From: Verrucomicrobiia bacterium
GTDB lineage: Bacteria > Zixibacteria > MSB-5A5 > DSPP01
Reading direction: 5' to 3'
Assembly: GCA_035574275.1 (NCBI GenBank)
Contig: DATLYY010000008.1
Location: 1-56,059, forward strand
DNA: 56,059 nucleotides
Shown here piece after piece: positions 36,170 to 53,503 of this stretch. The translations under genes were made by a program, and so were the position numbers. A model generated the notes under the pieces. The model was not told the origin of the DNA. It saw nothing but the letters and a program-made list of their open reading frames with translations, and did no database searches. Positions within the stretch are counted from its first letter, which is position 1, and each line of letters opens with the position of its first letter.

Positions 36170-37381
36170 ATGGAGCCCCACGTCAATCTGCTTCTGGAAA
36201 TCTTTCTGGCTTTCGGGGCGGCCAAACTGGCGGGGGAAATTTTCGAGCGGCTGCGCCTGCCGGCGTTGGTGGGGGAAATGGCGGCCGGCGTCCTTTTGGT
36301 GCCGGTGCTGGGAGCCATACACGGGGAAACCGTTCTGGAGGTTCTGCCGGAAATCGGCGTGGTCTTTCTTTTATTCGAGGTGGGGTTGGGGACGCCGGCC
36401 AAAAAGCTTCTGGAAGTGGGGAAACTTTCCCTCATGGTCGCCGTTCTGGGCGTCGCCCTCCCTTTTGGCGTGGGGGGTTCCTATCTGTACGCCACCGACC
36501 ACCCCGGATACGAGGCGCTTTTCGGGGGGGTGGCCCTGGTGGCGACTTCCGTCGGCATCACGGCCCGCATTTTCTCCGAGCGGGGGCTCTTGGACACCAA
36601 GGTGGCCCGGGTAATCTTGGGTGCCGCCGTTTTTGATGACATTCTGGGGATGGTTTTTCTGGCGGTGGTCTCCGGCCTTGCCCTGGGCGGTTTTTCCTGG
36701 CTGGGGTTGGGGATCGTGATTCTGGAGGCGGCCGTTTTTGTGCTTTTTCTAATTTTTTTCGGCCACCGCATTACCCGGCCGATGGTCCGACGGGTGGAAC
36801 GGTTCAAAACCAGAAATCCGGCCTTTGCCTTCGCGCTCCTTTTCTGCCTGGGGCTTTCCGTTTTGGCCGCGGAAATAAAAATCGCCGCCATCGTGGGGGC
36901 TTTTCTGGCCGGAATGGTACTTTCCGACTACGATGCCAAGTTCCGGCTGAAGGAAAAATTCGAGCCGATATACGATTTTTTCGTCCCCTTTTTCTTTTTC
37001 GCTTTGGGGGCCAAGCTTTCGCCGGAGGCACTTTTCAACCCCGCCACCATCGGCGTGGCCGGCATAATCACCCTGATTGCCATTTTAACCAAGTTTGTCG
37101 GCTGCGCCCTTCCGGTATGGAAATTGGGGTTCCGCAATTCTGTGGCCGTGGGCTGGGGGATGGTGCCGCGAGGGGAGGTCGGCGCCATTGTAGCTTTGGT
37201 GGGGCTTTCCGCCGGAGTGATATCGGAATCGTTTTACGGCGTGGTGCTGTTTATGGTGACCGTCACGACCTTGATTGTCCCTCCTCTTTTTCCCGTTTTC
37301 CTGAAAAACATCAAACCGGCCGCCGACTCCCCGCCGGAACCCGGAGCGAATCTTGAGCCCGAATCCCCGACTTCGAACTGA
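36170..37381 (+). CDS. CPA2-family cation:proton antiporter
   Basis: This 403-residue membrane protein has about twelve hydrophobic segments and the CPA2 pattern: LRLPALVGEMAAGVLLVPVLG near the start, LVATSVGITARIFSERG in the middle, DDILGMVFLAVVSG (the acidic pair of the ion site) and PRGEVGAIVALVGLS near the end. It should exchange Na+ or K+ for H+. It lacks the cytoplasmic RCK domain of Kef channels. The stop overlaps the next gene by 29 bases, so the two are probably coupled. Confidence 0.93.
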   Translation: MEPHVNLLLEIFLAFGAAKLAGEIFERLRLPALVGEMAAGVLLVPVLGAIHGETVLEVLPEIGVVFLLFEVGLGTPAKKLLEVGKLSLMVAVLGVALPFGVGGSYLYATDHPGYEALFGGVALVATSVGITARIFSERGLLDTKVARVILGAAVFDDILGMVFLAVVSGLALGGFSWLGLGIVILEAAVFVLFLIFFGHRITRPMVRRVERFKTRNPAFAFALLFCLGLSVLAAEIKIAAIVGAFLAGMVLSDYDAKFRLKEKFEPIYDFFVPFFFFALGAKLSPEALFNPATIGVAGIITLIAILTKFVGCALPVWKLGFRNSVAVGWGMVPRGEVGAIVALVGLSAGVISESFYGVVLFMVTVTTLIVPPLFPVFLKNIKPAADSPPEPGANLEPESPTSN

Positions 37382-39668
37382 CTTAGTCGAAAGCCGGCAG
37401 GAAGAAGGGGGCCAGACCTACTACATCGTCAAAGACCCCCGCACCCAAAGCTTTTTCCGCATGCGGGAAGTCGAGCACCGCATCGTCCAGCTGTTGGACG
37501 GCCGGACCTCCCTGCCGGAGATTGTCCCGAAGATTGAAGAAGAGTTCGGCTTCAATCTTTCGCTCGAGCAGTTGGAGCGGTTTGTGGACAAGCTCGACGA
37601 CCTTTTGTTTTTGGAATCGGAAAAATCGGAAAAGAAGCTCGCAGCCCGGGGTGGAAAATGGGAAAAACAGGACAAAACCTTCTTGGAACGAATGCTTTTT
37701 GTCAAGTTGAAGGCCTTCGACCCGGACGAGCTGGTTGCGAAGCTGGAAAAGAAGTTTCAATTCGTATTCTCCCCGTACTTTCTGGCCCTGGGCCTTTTGC
37801 TCTGCTTCCTAGCGGCCAAAGTGACCGTCGCGCGCTGGGAGGAATTTTCCGGGCTGACGTTGGGGCAGCTTTTCCGGGCGGAATCGGTTTTGGTGGTGCT
37901 GTTCACCATTTTCGCCACCATCTCGCTCCACGAATTCGCCCACGCCATCACCCTCAAACATTTCGGCGGGGAGGTGCGCCAGATGGGGTTTTTGCTTTTG
38001 TACTTCCAGCCCTGCTTTTACTGCGACGTTTCCGACGCTTATTTGTTTGCGGAAAAAAGAAAAAAAATCCTGGTGACGTTTGCCGGGGTGATTTTCCAAA
38101 TATTCTTGTGGAGTCTGGCCACCCTGGCCTGGCACTTGCTGCCGGAAGGTTCGGCCTTGGGCCATCTTTTCTTCATCGCCTCCGCATTTACCATGCTTAC
38201 GACCCTGTTCAATTTGAACCCGCTCATCAAACTGGACGGCTATTACATTCTGACCGACTGGGTCGGCATCCCCAATTTGCGGGCCAAGGCTTTCGGTTTC
38301 CTCAAAGCGAAGCTTTTACAGGTCGCCTTCGGTGCCCGGCCCGCGCTGCCCCCCTATACGCCCCGGGAGAAGCGGATTTTTCTTTTGTACGGGGTTTCGG
38401 GGCTGGTTTATTCCTTTTTGTTTTTGGGTTTCTTCTTCCTTTGGCTTTTCCGGGTCTTGACCGGTGCCTGGCGGGGGCTCGGTTTCCTGTTGTTTTCGGC
38501 TTTCGCCCTCTTTATCTTTGCCGTGCCGGTGGCGCACACCATCCAGAAGATGTACGGTTTTTTCGGGAAGGAGAACTTGAAAAAACTATCTCGCACCAAG
38601 CTGGGAATCACAATTGGAGGGGGGCTTCTTTTTTTGCTTTTCTTTTTCTTTTTTCCCTACCCGCAAACCGTCTCGGGGGACGCGGAAATCGAGCCGTTGG
38701 CCAGTTATACCCTCTCCGCCCCCCAGCCGGGGGTGCTGGAGGAAAAAATCGTGATGGGCGGGCAGGAGGATAAAAGCTCGACCGAGCTGACGGCCCTTTT
38801 TGGAACCGATTTCGCCTCGGTCAGAATCAGTTCCCGGGTAAAGGTGGGGGATATGGTCGCCGCGCAGGAAACGGTGGCCCACCTCGTATCCAACCAGTAT
38901 GAAAATGAGTTGAAATCGAATCAGGCGGCCTACGACCAAGCCCGTGCCAAACTGGATTTATTGAGAAAGGGGGCCAAACCGGAGGAACTGGAACGGTTGA
39001 GGGAGGCGGAGAAGCGGCTGAAGGTGGAATACGAACAGAAGAAACGGGAGTTTGACCGTTCGCAACAGCTTTTCGACCGCAAGGCGATTTCGCAGGAGGA
39101 ATTTCAAAAGTTCGAAAGCGAAAAGAACAAGGCCGAGGCGGCTTGGAAGGAGGCCCGCCAGGCCTACGCCGGCCTCGCCTCCGGCGCGCGTCCAGAGGAA
39201 ATACGGCAGGCCCAGGCCGAAATGTCCAAGCTGGAGGGTACCATCCGTTACCTGAAAGAGCAACTGGCCAAGCAGGCCGTGGTATCCCCCTTTCCGGGGC
39301 GGGTCACGCTGGTCAATTCCCCGCAGGCCTTGTTGCGCATCATCCGGCTGGACTCCGTGCGGGTTTTGACCAGGGTTTCCGAAACCGATTTGGATTTGGT
39401 CAAGCCGGAGGCCCCCATCCAATTGCGGTTGCACAGCTTTCCGAACCAAAGCTATTCCGGCCACGTCCAGCAGGTGAGCAACGAGGCGGAGGAGATGCGT
39501 TCCCAGAGCTTTTTCAAGGTGACCGGAGTTTTGGCCAATTCCGACGGCCGGCTGAAAGCCGGAATGAGCGGCAAGTTGAAAATCCACGCGGGGAAAAAGT
39601 CGCTATTCAAGATTTTGGGCCGTTCCGTGGTTCGCTTTTTCAAAGTGGAATTCTGGAACTGGTGGTAA
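37353..39668 (+). CDS. PqqD-like / M50 zinc metallopeptidase / HlyD fusion protein
   Basis: The 771-residue protein combines three modules. Residues 1-90 are PqqD-like (IVQLLDGRTSLPEIV). Residues 140-440 form a multi-span membrane domain with the site-2-protease motif HEFAH (193-197) and its partner NPLIKLDGYY (Asp295), plus a CFYC pair at 221-224. Residues 460-750 are a HlyD-like periplasmic adaptor with a coiled coil (about 510-630). Such fusions occur in peptide (RiPP) export and maturation systems. The start is TTG 37353, preceded by CGGAG and overlapping the antiporter stop. No peptide precursor or partner enzyme is visible nearby. Confidence 0.85.
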   Translation: MSPNPRLRTDLVESRQEEGGQTYYIVKDPRTQSFFRMREVEHRIVQLLDGRTSLPEIVPKIEEEFGFNLSLEQLERFVDKLDDLLFLESEKSEKKLAARGGKWEKQDKTFLERMLFVKLKAFDPDELVAKLEKKFQFVFSPYFLALGLLLCFLAAKVTVARWEEFSGLTLGQLFRAESVLVVLFTIFATISLHEFAHAITLKHFGGEVRQMGFLLLYFQPCFYCDVSDAYLFAEKRKKILVTFAGVIFQIFLWSLATLAWHLLPEGSALGHLFFIASAFTMLTTLFNLNPLIKLDGYYILTDWVGIPNLRAKAFGFLKAKLLQVAFGARPALPPYTPREKRIFLLYGVSGLVYSFLFLGFFFLWLFRVLTGAWRGLGFLLFSAFALFIFAVPVAHTIQKMYGFFGKENLKKLSRTKLGITIGGGLLFLLFFFFFPYPQTVSGDAEIEPLASYTLSAPQPGVLEEKIVMGGQEDKSSTELTALFGTDFASVRISSRVKVGDMVAAQETVAHLVSNQYENELKSNQAAYDQARAKLDLLRKGAKPEELERLREAEKRLKVEYEQKKREFDRSQQLFDRKAISQEEFQKFESEKNKAEAAWKEARQAYAGLASGARPEEIRQAQAEMSKLEGTIRYLKEQLAKQAVVSPFPGRVTLVNSPQALLRIIRLDSVRVLTRVSETDLDLVKPEAPIQLRLHSFPNQSYSGHVQQVSNEAEEMRSQSFFKVTGVLANSDGRLKAGMSGKLKIHAGKKSLFKILGRSVVRFFKVEFWNWW

Positions 39669-49344: not shown

Positions 49345-50235
49345 TTACGCGGGACGTTTCCCCGCCGCCACCAAATACCCGATAATCTTATAAACCAGCT
49401 TGGCCGCGATGAAATCGGAGGAAATCTGGCCGGGAAGGGGGCAAAGCTCCATTACGTCAAAGCCGACCACCCGCTTGCGCTCGGCCAAAAAACGTAAAAG
49501 TTTGAGCGTTTCATACCAGCCCACCCCTCCCGGCTCCGGCGTGCCGACCGCCGGCATAAAGGAGGGGTCAAAACCATCCAGATCAAAGGTCAAGTAGACC
49601 GTGTCGGTCAAGCGGTCTAAAATTTCGTCTATCGAGGTCTCACCGGAAATGAAACTGTAGGCGGAGACGACCGGGATTTTTTTGGCTTTGATGAACTTGG
49701 CCTCGTCTATCGAATAATTGCGGATGCCAACGCCGACCGTGGGGCAAAGCTCGGTTATCCGACGCATCACGCAGGCGTGGTTGTAAGGGGAATCTTCAAA
49801 GGAATCACGCAAATCGGCATGGGCGTCGATTTGCAAAACGGAAAGGTTTTTGTAAATCTGCTTGTAGGCCCGAACGGTGCCGAAAGTGAGGGAATGCTCC
49901 CCGCCCAGCATCGCCACCTTCTTTTTCTTGCGCGCCAAGGGCAAAACGGCCCGATAAACACGTTCCACCATCTCCTTTGGCCCCTTGGTGGTTATTTCCA
50001 AGGAGGGATGGGTGTAAATCCCCGCTTCATACGGCTCGAATCCAAGTTCGTCATCGTAGGTTTCCACTTGGCGTGAAGCGGCCAAAATGGCCGCCGGCCC
50101 CTCCCGCGTACCGGCCTTGTAGGAAGTGGTGGAATCGTAGCCGACCGGCAGGATGACGAATGGGGATTTTGGGGAGGAAAATTCCGGCGGAATCCCTAAA
50201 AAATTATTGTGATGAAAATGGAGGGCGTCAGCCAA
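49345..50235 (-). CDS. speB: Agmatinase (ureohydrolase)
   Basis: The 296-residue enzyme converts agmatine to putrescine and urea. Metal ligands are His114 in GGEHS, Asp137-x-His139-x-Asp141 in IDAHADLR, and Asp218 and Asp220 in FDLDGFDPSF. PAVGTPEPGG follows, as in the family. The start is TTG 50235 after AAAGGA. It is downstream of the arginine decarboxylase gene on the same strand, so the two form a polyamine route. Guanidinobutyrase-type activity is possible in principle. Confidence 0.9.
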   Translation of the reverse strand: MADALHFHHNNFLGIPPEFSSPKSPFVILPVGYDSTTSYKAGTREGPAAILAASRQVETYDDELGFEPYEAGIYTHPSLEITTKGPKEMVERVYRAVLPLARKKKKVAMLGGEHSLTFGTVRAYKQIYKNLSVLQIDAHADLRDSFEDSPYNHACVMRRITELCPTVGVGIRNYSIDEAKFIKAKKIPVVSAYSFISGETSIDEILDRLTDTVYLTFDLDGFDPSFMPAVGTPEPGGVGWYETLKLLRFLAERKRVVGFDVMELCPLPGQISSDFIAAKLVYKIIGYLVAAGKRPA

Positions 50236-50266
50236 GATGATTTCCTTTTTCAGATATGTTTTTGTA

Positions 50267-50316
50267 GGGGTTCAATAAATTGAACCCCGTAGGGGCGTAT
50301 TGCAATACGCCCCTAC
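50267..50316. repeat. Two adjacent palindromes of the TAGGGG family
   Basis: 50267-50288 has GGGGTTCAAT arms around AA. 50289-50316 is a perfect 28-base palindrome with GTAGGGGCGTATTG arms. They lie back to back between pdaD and speB, both on the minus strand, so they would be inside the likely transcript. Confidence 0.85.
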
Positions 50317-50326
50317 TCCCCGCGCC

Positions 50327-50878
50327 TCATTCCGTGATGAAAATCCCGGCTGCCACGACGGTGGTCCAAAGCCCATTTTTGTCCCCCTCGGCCGACTGGG
50401 TGATGGAGCGGGTGCGCACGATTTTGCCGGAAATTTTCCAGATTTCCCGCTTTTCGTCGTACCCTTTGTTCGGGTCAAACTCCAGCCCCAAGGTGGTGGC
50501 CAGCATCTCCGCCGCCAGATCCTCGGCGTAATCGCTGGCTTTCTTTTCGGTCATCCCGTAATCATGGTGCTCGGACAAATAGCCGAACTGCCGCCGGTCC
50601 TGCGGCACGGCCAGCCCCACGGAGGAGGAAATCAGCCGGTTCGGCTCGTTGGTCGCCGCCCGGGCCATCACGCAAAAAACCACCTGCCCGTCGTACAAAT
50701 AGGTCAGCCCTTCCTGCTTGCTGATGATTTTGCACTTGGGGGGGAAAATGGAGGAGACCGAAACCAGGTTGAACCGGGCGATGCCGGCCGAACGCAGCGC
50801 CAGCTCGAAGCTGGATAGCTGCTCTTTGTGCTTCCCCACCCCCTTGGTCAGAAAAATTTTTTTCGGCAGAATTACCAT
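50327..50878 (-). CDS. pdaD: Pyruvoyl-dependent arginine decarboxylase
   Basis: The 183-residue proenzyme is cleaved between two serines (Ser42-Ser43 in [10 protein letters not shown]) to make the pyruvoyl cofactor; the family cleaves at the same kind of site. It decarboxylates arginine to agmatine, the substrate of the downstream agmatinase. An AAGGGAGG site precedes the ATG 50878. Length and motif order match the archaeal and bacterial enzyme. Confidence 0.92.
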
Positions 50879-52175: not shown

Positions 52176-52760
52176 TTACCGGGAAAGGGCCGCTTCCAGC
52201 GCCTCACCCCAGAAATGGAGGATGGTGATATGCATTTCCTGAATCCGCTGGGTATCGACGGAGGGAACGGCGACCCACAAGTCCGCCAGCTTTCCCAGCT
52301 TTCCGCCGTTTGTGCCGGTCAGCGCGATGACTTTCAACCGTTCTTTTCGGGCCATACGCACCGCTTCGAGCACGTTGGCCGAATTGCCGGAGGTGGAAAT
52401 CGCCACCAAAACGTCACCAGTAGCACCCAGGGCCTCCACCTGGCGGGAAAAAAGCTTTTCAAATCCCAAATCGTTGCCCGTGGCGGTCAAAATAGAGCTG
52501 TCGGTGGTCAACGCGATGGCCGGGCGGGCTTTCTGCAGTTTTCTCTTGCGCAAGCGGACGACCAGCTCGGCCGCAAAATGCTGGCAGTCGGCCGCCGAGC
52601 CGCCGTTGCCGCATAGAAGGATTTTTTTGCCCGCTTTCAAGGCCGAATAAAGCAGCCGGTAAGCGGCCGCCCATTCTTCGATCCAGTCGAAGCAATGCTG
52701 CCGGAGCTCGATGGAGTCGGCCAGAATCCTGCGGGCGATTTCCTGCGGCGAGTTTTTCAC
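52176..52760 (-). CDS. gmhA: Phosphoheptose isomerase-like SIS protein
   Basis: This 194-residue SIS-domain protein has GNGGSAADCQHFAAELVVR and STSGNSANVLEA loops, as in GmhA, which makes D-glycero-D-manno-heptose 7-phosphate for LPS core. The start is GTG 52760, overlapping the GGGP synthase stop by one base (TAGTG). Other SIS isomerases remain possible; the adjacent ligase-like gene favours the LPS role. Confidence 0.88.
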   Translation of the reverse strand: MKNSPQEIARRILADSIELRQHCFDWIEEWAAAYRLLYSALKAGKKILLCGNGGSAADCQHFAAELVVRLRKRKLQKARPAIALTTDSSILTATGNDLGFEKLFSRQVEALGATGDVLVAISTSGNSANVLEAVRMARKERLKVIALTGTNGGKLGKLADLWVAVPSVDTQRIQEMHITILHFWGEALEAALSR

Positions 52761-53503
52761 TATCCCTTATGGCAGGCGGCGGCAAATTCGCTCAAAAACC
52801 GGCCTGAATCATTTTTTTCAAACTGATTTCCCGCCACGACAATCTTAGCCCCGGCACGAACCTTCGAGGCCGCCTCCTCCGGCGTTTTGATGCCTCCTCC
52901 AGCAATGACCGGAAGTGAGACGAAAGACGAAACTGCGGAAATAACCTCGTCCGGCACGGAGGTTGCCGAACCGGAGCCAGCTTCCAGATAGACCAGTTTC
53001 ATCCCGAAATATTCGGCGGCCAAGGCATGCGAACAGGCGATGTCCGGCTTGTCGCGCGGAATCGGCCGGGTGTCGGAAACGTATTCAACCGATGTCGTTT
53101 TCCCCGATTCGATGAGCAAATACCCGGTCGGAATCGGCTCCAAACCGTATTTTTTGACCAAAGGCGCCCCTTTCACCTGTTCGCCGATTAAAAAATCCGG
53201 ATTGCGTCCGGAAAGAAGCGACAAAAATAAAACGGCATCCGCTTTTGGCGCAATCTGGTTGGAATTGCCGGGAAAAAGAACGAGGGGGATCGAAATTTTC
53301 TGCTTGATGGCCGCCACCGCCTCGTCGAACTGGGAATTGACCAGCATGGAGGAGCCGACCAAAACAGCATCCGCTCCGGCCTTTTGGGCCACTTCCGCCT
53401 GACAAGCCAACTCGGCGGCGGCTTTTCTGTCCGGGTCCAAAAGCAAAAAGAAAAGCCCCCGTTTTTTTTTCAGTTCATTGGTGAGGTGTTGAAAGACACC
53501 CAT
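52760..53503 (-). CDS. Geranylgeranylglyceryl-phosphate synthase family (GGGPS/PcrB)
   Basis: The 247-residue TIM-barrel protein has FFLLLDPDRK, GADAVLVGSS, LVLFPGNSNQI, YLEAGSGSATSV and VIAGGGIKTPEEA, the prenyl-transferase pattern of GGGPS. In archaea it makes the first ether bond of membrane lipids; homologues occur in FCB bacteria and as PcrB in Firmicutes. It starts at ATG 53503, overlapping the alaS stop by one base. The chain length and the acceptor polyol are unknown. Confidence 0.88.
   Translation of the reverse strand: MGVFQHLTNELKKKRGLFFLLLDPDRKAAAELACQAEVAQKAGADAVLVGSSMLVNSQFDEAVAAIKQKISIPLVLFPGNSNQIAPKADAVLFLSLLSGRNPDFLIGEQVKGAPLVKKYGLEPIPTGYLLIESGKTTSVEYVSDTRPIPRDKPDIACSHALAAEYFGMKLVYLEAGSGSATSVPDEVISAVSSFVSLPVIAGGGIKTPEEAASKVRAGAKIVVAGNQFEKNDSGRFLSEFAAACHKG

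Follow-up and report, generated by a model that had tools for sequence, protein, structure and literature searches.

A solitary protein joining a PqqD-like domain, a site-2 protease and a HlyD adaptor in Candidatus Zixiibacteriota, and its possible role in export

Background

What is the task of a bacterial protein in which a PqqD-like domain, an intramembrane protease and a periplasmic adaptor follow one another on a single chain? The question is raised by a gene in a stretch of 56,059 nucleotides (called the window below) from contig DATLYY010000008.1 of assembly GCA_035574275.1, which belongs to the uncultured phylum Candidatus Zixiibacteriota. A reading of the bare letters, the original prediction, took the product for a fusion of PqqD-like, M50 and HlyD parts, and proposed an all-in-one device for peptide maturation and export, perhaps an undescribed variant and coupled to a neighbouring CPA2 antiporter. 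Our analysis leads us to favour, tentatively and at somewhat less than an even chance, the reading that the protein is a self-contained export adaptor with leader recognition, cleavage and TolC docking built in.

Results

Architecture of the fusion protein

Predicted folds support the three parts in the predicted order, and of the Pfam scores that of the HlyD part is above its cut-off (Table 1). The gene is not a chance open reading frame (ORF), because another genome of the genus encodes a relative with 85% identity over the full length, and an alignment of 37 full-length sequences could be made. These sequences, which underlie the alignments and the AlphaFold2 models, come from 37 genomes and were drawn from 41 loci; the four loci left out have ORFs shorter than 740 residues, three cut by a contig end and one of 691 residues. 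Two AlphaFold2 models support the folds of all three parts, so that the protein, as modelled, is an RRE-like fold (RRE being the recognition element of ribosomally synthesized and post-translationally modified peptides, RiPPs), a site-2-protease core and a periplasmic adaptor on one chain. The full-length model has a predicted template modelling score (pTM) of 0.45 and does not fix the mutual placement of the domains.

In the catalytic motifs of the protease core H193, E194, H197, N289 and D295 are invariant in all 37 sequences, and the loss of motif that was looked for among the homologues, as a sign against the original prediction, is not seen. The cysteines C221 and C224 are present in 24 and 21 of the 37, respectively. 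When the M50 model alone (residues 112-436) is compared with solved structures, SpoIVFB is found at Z 10.3, two RseP orthologues at 9.6 and 8.3 and MjS2P at 8.4. All six rows at Z of at least 8 (8.2-10.3) are site-2 proteases, the sixth being RasP, which we take to be one as well, and the next, unrelated row has 5.2; Foldseek alone, given this model, returns nothing at E 0.001 or below. The fusion thus carries intact site-2-protease motifs on a modelled site-2-protease fold, and proteolysis is predicted.

Residues 3-89 align by VIA-align with RiPP leader-binding proteins that were solved with their leader peptide, namely 6jx3 (Z 11.4), 5v1v (Z 11.1) and 5v1u (Z 11.0), at 2.3-2.5 Å over 81-83 residues (2.3 Å over 83 for 5v1v), and their modelled shape is the winged-helix fold of the leader-binding proteins. 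The best sequence family for the first 390 residues is daptide_HExxH (NCBIfam NF041824), with 234.1 bits over residues 7-391, below the curated cut-off of 300. A PqqD search of the whole genome gives a single candidate better than E 0.01, which is the fusion gene itself.

The adaptor half scores 41.2 bits with Pfam HlyD_D23, above the cut-off of 30, and residues 413-757 match the folds of MacA, MexA and EmrA with a best Z of 15.5; in the model this half looks complete, including the long coiled-coil hairpin. The TolC-docking motif is given as RxxxLxxxxxxS in the accessible text of PMC3391258, and RSQQLFDRKAIS at the hairpin tip fits it. The strict form of this RLS motif, with S or T at its end, is found in 18 of the 37 fusions, against 5% in shuffled hairpins; by position, 35 sequences have R569, 36 have L or M at 573, and 23 have S or T at the last place. 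The chain ends with the nearly invariant tail V-E-x-W-x-W-W/F. A stop-anchored search for this tail gives one match each in 34 of 58 genomes, every match being the fusion gene's own end, and the backward control gives none; the search thus turned up no partner protein with this tail in the class.

Table 1. Positions in the window of the fusion gene, its parts and the adjoining gene
Feature	Residues	Position	Strand	Evidence or remark
RRE (PqqD-like)-M50 site-2 protease-HlyD/membrane fusion protein (MFP) fusion		37353..39668	+	771 residues, TTG start
RRE/PqqD-like winged-helix domain (predicted)	3-89	37359..37619	+	Pfam PqqD, VIA-align
M50 intramembrane protease region (predicted)	112-436	37686..38660	+	AlphaFold2 predicted local distance difference test (pLDDT) 84.5, pTM 0.74
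HEFAH zinc-binding motif	193-197	37929..37943	+	H193, E194, H197 in 37/37
Second catalytic motif NLNPLIKLDGY	287-297	38211..38243	+	N289, D295 in 37/37
Periplasmic adaptor (HlyD/MFP) domain (predicted)	437-750	38661..39602	+	HlyD_D23 above cut-off; MacA/EmrA/MexA folds
Putative RLS-type TolC-docking motif RSQQLFDRKAIS, hairpin tip	569-580	39057..39092	+	Motif definition PMC3391258
C-terminal helix and tail ending VEFWNWW		39603..39665	+	E766, W768 in 37/37; W770 in 36/37
CPA2 cation/proton antiporter		36170..37381	+	Na_H_Exchanger 233.7 bits; neighbour, not conserved partner

Distribution in the phylum

A model of the PqqD-M50 half matches 100 of 132 genomes of the phylum; of the 78 best assemblies it matches 63. 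The gene is conserved throughout the class and is nearly always single copy, with open frames of about 700-860 residues where no contig end cuts them. The raw search with the fusion finds matches in 49 of 58 genomes, a figure that includes HlyD-only matches; 46 genomes have a match at E below 1e-40 that is either the fusion or a part of it truncated by a contig end. In a tree of the PqqD-M50 halves all nine genome families with at least two rows form single clades; to hold all solitary fusions together needs one extra change, with a long-branched Streptomyces row falling among them. The pattern, as judged from these sequences, is that of a vertically inherited single-copy core gene of the phylum which follows taxonomy.

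An additional PqqD-M50 copy is found in three genomes of the phylum (G090, G107 and G130). The extra copies in G090 and G107 lack the HlyD half and fall with the daptide protease in the tree. Proteins of this kind, with 399 and 437 residues, are encoded at L139:7414-8613 and L141:1175-2488 in two zixiibacterial genomes, in surroundings that may hold a RiPP-like cluster. In G130, the single zixiibacterial genome found with a second copy of the module type described below, genes for GAF-HlyD, HlyD and a PqqD-M50 frame stand in a row (L140:4300-8626, partly N), and this copy groups with the alteromonad modules.

A solitary setting

The fusion gene stands alone. Its start overlaps the antiporter ORF by 29 nt, and the original prediction coupled the two; the antiporter adjoins the fusion in only two of the 41 loci, this window and the other genome of the same genus, and we reject the coupling. 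Upstream the genes vary, with a ClC channel directly upstream in 6 of the 41 loci and a MoeA-like gene in 5 (names given by eye); downstream, the next gene has the opposite orientation in 23. In about half of the loci a convergent gene group follows downstream, with genes that look by eye like those for a histidine kinase, a TPR-bearing Ser/Thr kinase and an outer-membrane-like protein (for example L058, L074 and L075). We found no reason to tie the kinase group or the ClC neighbours to the function of the fusion.

Within the window, the main ORFs at 17.1-56.1 kb were examined (34 proteins including the fusion), and those with an assignable family are metabolic or housekeeping. Among them there is no ABC or radical-SAM gene, just as predicted, and neither RiPP enzymes nor genes of a daptide-type cluster. 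No cognate inner-membrane pump gene lies beside the fusion gene, which leaves a distant partner possible. GAF-HlyD and HlyD genes are likewise absent beside the fusion in the window, and were seen only at the second copy of G130, no genome-wide search for them having been made. The whole genome has a single SecA, no SPASM and no C39 peptidase. Its TolC-family genes lie at four loci or contigs, beside MacAB-like, RND and CusA-like genes, and one of them has no adjoining transporter gene (partners named by eye).

Relatives in multi-gene modules

Proteins of the M50-HlyD kind have been reported before, so the locus is not undescribed as originally supposed. Kamneva et al. found in 2015 (PMC4452313) that secondary SecA_DEAD genes are clustered with genes for M50-HlyD, HlyD and GAF-HlyD proteins, and gave their broader role as unknown. 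Such a locus is like ours in joining M50 and HlyD in one protein and in having no ABC transporter. It differs in being multi-gene, with a secondary SecA, HlyD, GAF-HlyD and sometimes OEP, and in being thought to have moved by horizontal gene transfer, whereas the fusion is solitary, has a single SecA in its genome and is apparently inherited vertically; PqqD is not mentioned in the main text of that paper. In the literature outside subscription journals, no paper was found that joins PqqD, M50 and HlyD as a fusion, or a site-2 protease with HlyD and PqqD. As far as these sources go, the kind was described in 2015 and left unexplained, and the solitary zixiibacterial form is new.

Two alteromonad relatives and one in Chthoniobacter lie in loci, here called modules, with GAF-HlyD, HlyD and TolC. 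Among plasmid records, 97 match the window protein and 74 the alteromonad protein. We picked 18 plasmid regions by hand: 14 annotated proteobacterial ones (L125 and L135 being one plasmid), two unannotated (L143, L145) and two from Streptomyces. In 11 of the 14 annotated proteobacterial regions so picked, a giant gene (2,347 to 16,239 residues) stands at the upstream end of the module. The other three have none: L124 has a gene of 492 residues, L136 an unannotated open-ended frame of 790 residues, and L126 begins at the record start. An open-ended frame is also found upstream in the unannotated L145. Five of the 14 carry a second SecA with SecA_DEAD, PP_bind and P-loop domains. A classical export operon using the same fusion had been named as a finding that would speak against a new device; operons do exist in other phyla, but the annotated proteobacterial ones examined hold no ABC exporter. 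A PqqD-M50-HlyD gene is found in 24 of 5,426 complete E. coli genomes and is mostly plasmid-borne there. In L122 (E. coli plasmid NZ_CP081687.1 55505-69240) and L128, the TolC/HlyD/HlyD/PqqD-M50-HlyD locus adjoins a gene for an Ig-like protein of 4,459 residues.

The adaptor half of the fusion scores 137.5 bits against the best GAF-HlyD protein, with 90.4 and 83.3 bits against the MacA-like adaptors of its own genome, while 14 of 15 M50 proteins of the modules stay at 20 bits or below, the exception being that of Chthoniobacter at 86. In this comparison, GAF-HlyD means the second HlyD protein of every module; of the seven checked for a Pfam GAF domain, those in L123, L125, L140, L006 and L008 have it and those in L122 and L127 do not. 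W.W tails are detected by regular expression on 7 of 16 of these second HlyD proteins, not at the very end in L132 and L008, and the tail of the fusion appears to resemble several of them. Plausible matches to the RLS expression lie on the small HlyD proteins of L123, L132, L144 and L140; other matches fall elsewhere in the chain, and most module proteins have none. With the strict RLS motif on its hairpin and a W-x-W tail like that of the second HlyD proteins, the one zixiibacterial chain therefore seems to carry features that the modules spread over two or three proteins.

Giant proteins and a candidate leader

The giant proteins of the modules are candidate substrates. In the first 110 residues of 14 candidates, strict LExR occurs in 10, where shuffling gives a chance of 2.9% for each. 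Read by eye, 12 have [LFI]ExR, which is missing in Alisedimentitalea and Magnetospirillum. Examples are ALESRQLFDGAA in E. coli, ALEPRLLLSAD in Mesorhizobium and KLEDRIAPGG in alteromonads. Acidic repeat proteins of the alteromonads (L006:2455-5655, L007:2397-5624, L194:1483-3090) have in common an N-terminal stretch with IEKLEDRIAPGGIGGLVGD, and one of them lies away from the module in the L006 genome. A connection from this leader to the RRE may be inferred. A LEPR-XLL domain has already been named by NCBI. A giant LEPR-XLL protein in a Vibrio is described in the accessible part of PMC10868602, and the literature covered here gives no source for loci that combine RRE-M50-HlyD proteins, giant proteins and a common leader.

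A model of the LExR leader, built from 12 rows, was run on 16 hand-picked genomes. Its best matches in G132 and G133 are rows it was built from, and G134 reaches only E 0.60; a second protein in G132 (a frame of 1632 residues, E 1.1e-6) is not a row of the model and is a paralogue of one. A match in G130 (E 0.0058) was dropped, being antisense to an ORF of 631 residues, and the other matches in the class have E of 0.37-0.90.

Discussion

How a self-contained export adaptor may work

We infer leader binding, cleavage, a membrane role of the tail, TolC docking and export, which could be combined as follows. The RRE-like domain would capture, in the cytoplasm, the leader of a substrate protein or peptide, and the site-2-protease core would cut the substrate at the membrane. 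The adaptor would be anchored to the inner membrane by the transmembrane helix before it as well as by the W-x-W tail after it, and its hairpin tip would dock to a TolC-family channel so that the product is handed out. The fusion would thus work like the M50-HlyD component of the loci with secondary SecA, HlyD and giant proteins, in a solitary form with the docking hairpin and the tail on the same chain. This differs from type I secretion, where an ABC transporter goes with the adaptor. We count in its support the three folds, the invariant catalytic residues, the conservation of the RLS motif, the TolC-family genes of the genome, one of them without an adjoining transporter gene, the relatives in TolC/HlyD loci with giant proteins, the [LFI]ExR leader on 12 of the 14 candidate substrates, the secondary SecA in five of the plasmid regions and the scores of the adaptor half.

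Several results weigh against this proposal. The scores of two parts are below the Pfam cut-offs, being 18.6 and, in a second search, 22.8 bits for PqqD (cut-off 23.4) and 19.6 bits for Peptidase_M50 (cut-off 27.2). In 14 of the 37 fusions A or P stands in place of the serine of the RLS motif. The link of the adaptor half to GAF-HlyD is loose, since the genome's own MacA-like adaptors reach scores as high as those of most GAF-HlyD proteins. Among the 41 loci the fusion has no conserved operon partner. A secondary SecA is missing in all 58 genomes searched (one match in 55, two pieces in one and none in two), and is set aside as the motor in this class. LEPR-8K gives nothing over its cut-off in 20 genomes of the class, and the LExR model finds nothing up to E 1 in the window's own genome; with no acceptable class match from either among the 20 and 16 genomes searched, a LEPR or LExR leader in this class is rejected. 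In short, the searches made gave no substrate, leader or energy source for the fusion.

Alternative explanations

The strongest rival is a housekeeping site-2 protease that serves envelope signalling or quality control, similar to RseP or SpoIVFB, because the gene of such an enzyme would be expected to be a solitary core gene and its catalytic residues to be invariant. The RRE-like domain would then pick a membrane-bound regulator or a remnant peptide, and the adaptor part would be a periplasmic sensor or gate, with no export involved. PDZ domains act in this way in RseP. The single-copy, vertical pattern, the closeness of the core to the folds of SpoIVFB and RseP, with which it shares both catalytic motifs, and the lack of an export partner nearby all agree with it. 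Neither of the two is known to us with a fused RRE domain or adaptor, and the adaptor half of the fusion is complete, with a long coiled-coil hairpin whose tip motif is kept above chance, and has relatives in TolC/HlyD loci elsewhere; we hold this explanation to be unlikely. Distinctly less likely is a membrane-anchored adaptor for a separate exporter, such as a MacAB-like pump of the same genome, in which the M50 part is mainly a scaffold and cleavage is secondary. MacAB-like genes do lie on contigs C7 and C75 (named by eye), their MacA-like adaptors give the 90.4 and 83.3 bits quoted above, and MacA, EmrA and MexA share with the fusion the fold and the RLS motif. These adaptors are paired with a pump gene, however, whereas that of the fusion is tethered to a protease and ends in an unusual W-x-W tail; the MacAB-like pumps have adaptors of their own, and a scaffold would not need catalytic residues invariant in every sequence.

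The least probable of the explanations is an enzyme that matures and exports a RiPP whose precursor gene is distant or has escaped recognition. It draws on the match of the RRE fold to leader-bound RiPP proteins, on daptide_HExxH as the best family of the N-terminal part, and on the two Streptomyces relatives, both of which sit in RiPP clusters. The daptide protease MpaP/DapP (NF041824; for daptides see the accessible part of PMC10036551) has, like the fusion, an RRE-like domain plus M50. Its family model (379 positions) lacks the HlyD half, though, and the daptide example examined is part of a RiPP cluster that includes precursors and ABC genes, whereas the window ORFs examined include no such cluster genes. 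The fusion stays below the daptide cut-off, as does every protein in the 132 genomes; its distribution is core and not accessory; and the HlyD-less copies in two genomes, which fall with the daptide protein in the tree, are genes of their own. With neither SPASM nor C39 in the genome and no RiPP enzyme among the window ORFs examined, a RiPP locus is rejected. A peptide maturation and export device, as originally proposed, is compatible with the folds, and its export half stands; its RiPP character does not, the gene being a vertical single-copy core gene and not an accessory locus.

Implications

If the export adaptor is right, it joins RRE leader recognition, site-2 proteolysis and TolC-dependent export, which have so far been treated apart, and points to an envelope function that is conserved, and probably important, in a phylum not yet cultured. 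It would also give a testable function to the locus type that was reported in 2015 without an explanation, and for which culturable bacteria offer candidate substrates and a candidate leader. The most promising part is the combination of RRE-M50-HlyD loci, giant proteins and a common N-terminal leader. A broader hypothesis, which we regard as possible rather than probable, is that RRE domains serve as the signal recognition of a protein secretion route. RRE-M50-HlyD proteins would recognise the [LFI]ExR leader on giant surface proteins, cleave these proteins and pass them through a conduit of HlyD and TolC, with SecA or some other source as the driving force, and the Zixiibacteriota would keep a condensed, solitary core form with a leader of their own.

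Other observations

In the window's own genome, two secreted-looking proteins (L095:2826-5171 and L098:6420-8813) have dockerin-like C-terminal tails that resemble each other by eye and may serve for sorting or anchoring. Elsewhere in the window, an arginase-family gene and a gene for a pyruvoyl-dependent arginine decarboxylase adjoin each other at 49345-50878 (minus strand), a polyamine route. In addition, a PcrB-family gene (168 bits) is found in this bacterium at 52760-53503 (minus strand), presumably of the geranylgeranylglyceryl or heptaprenylglyceryl phosphate synthase type.

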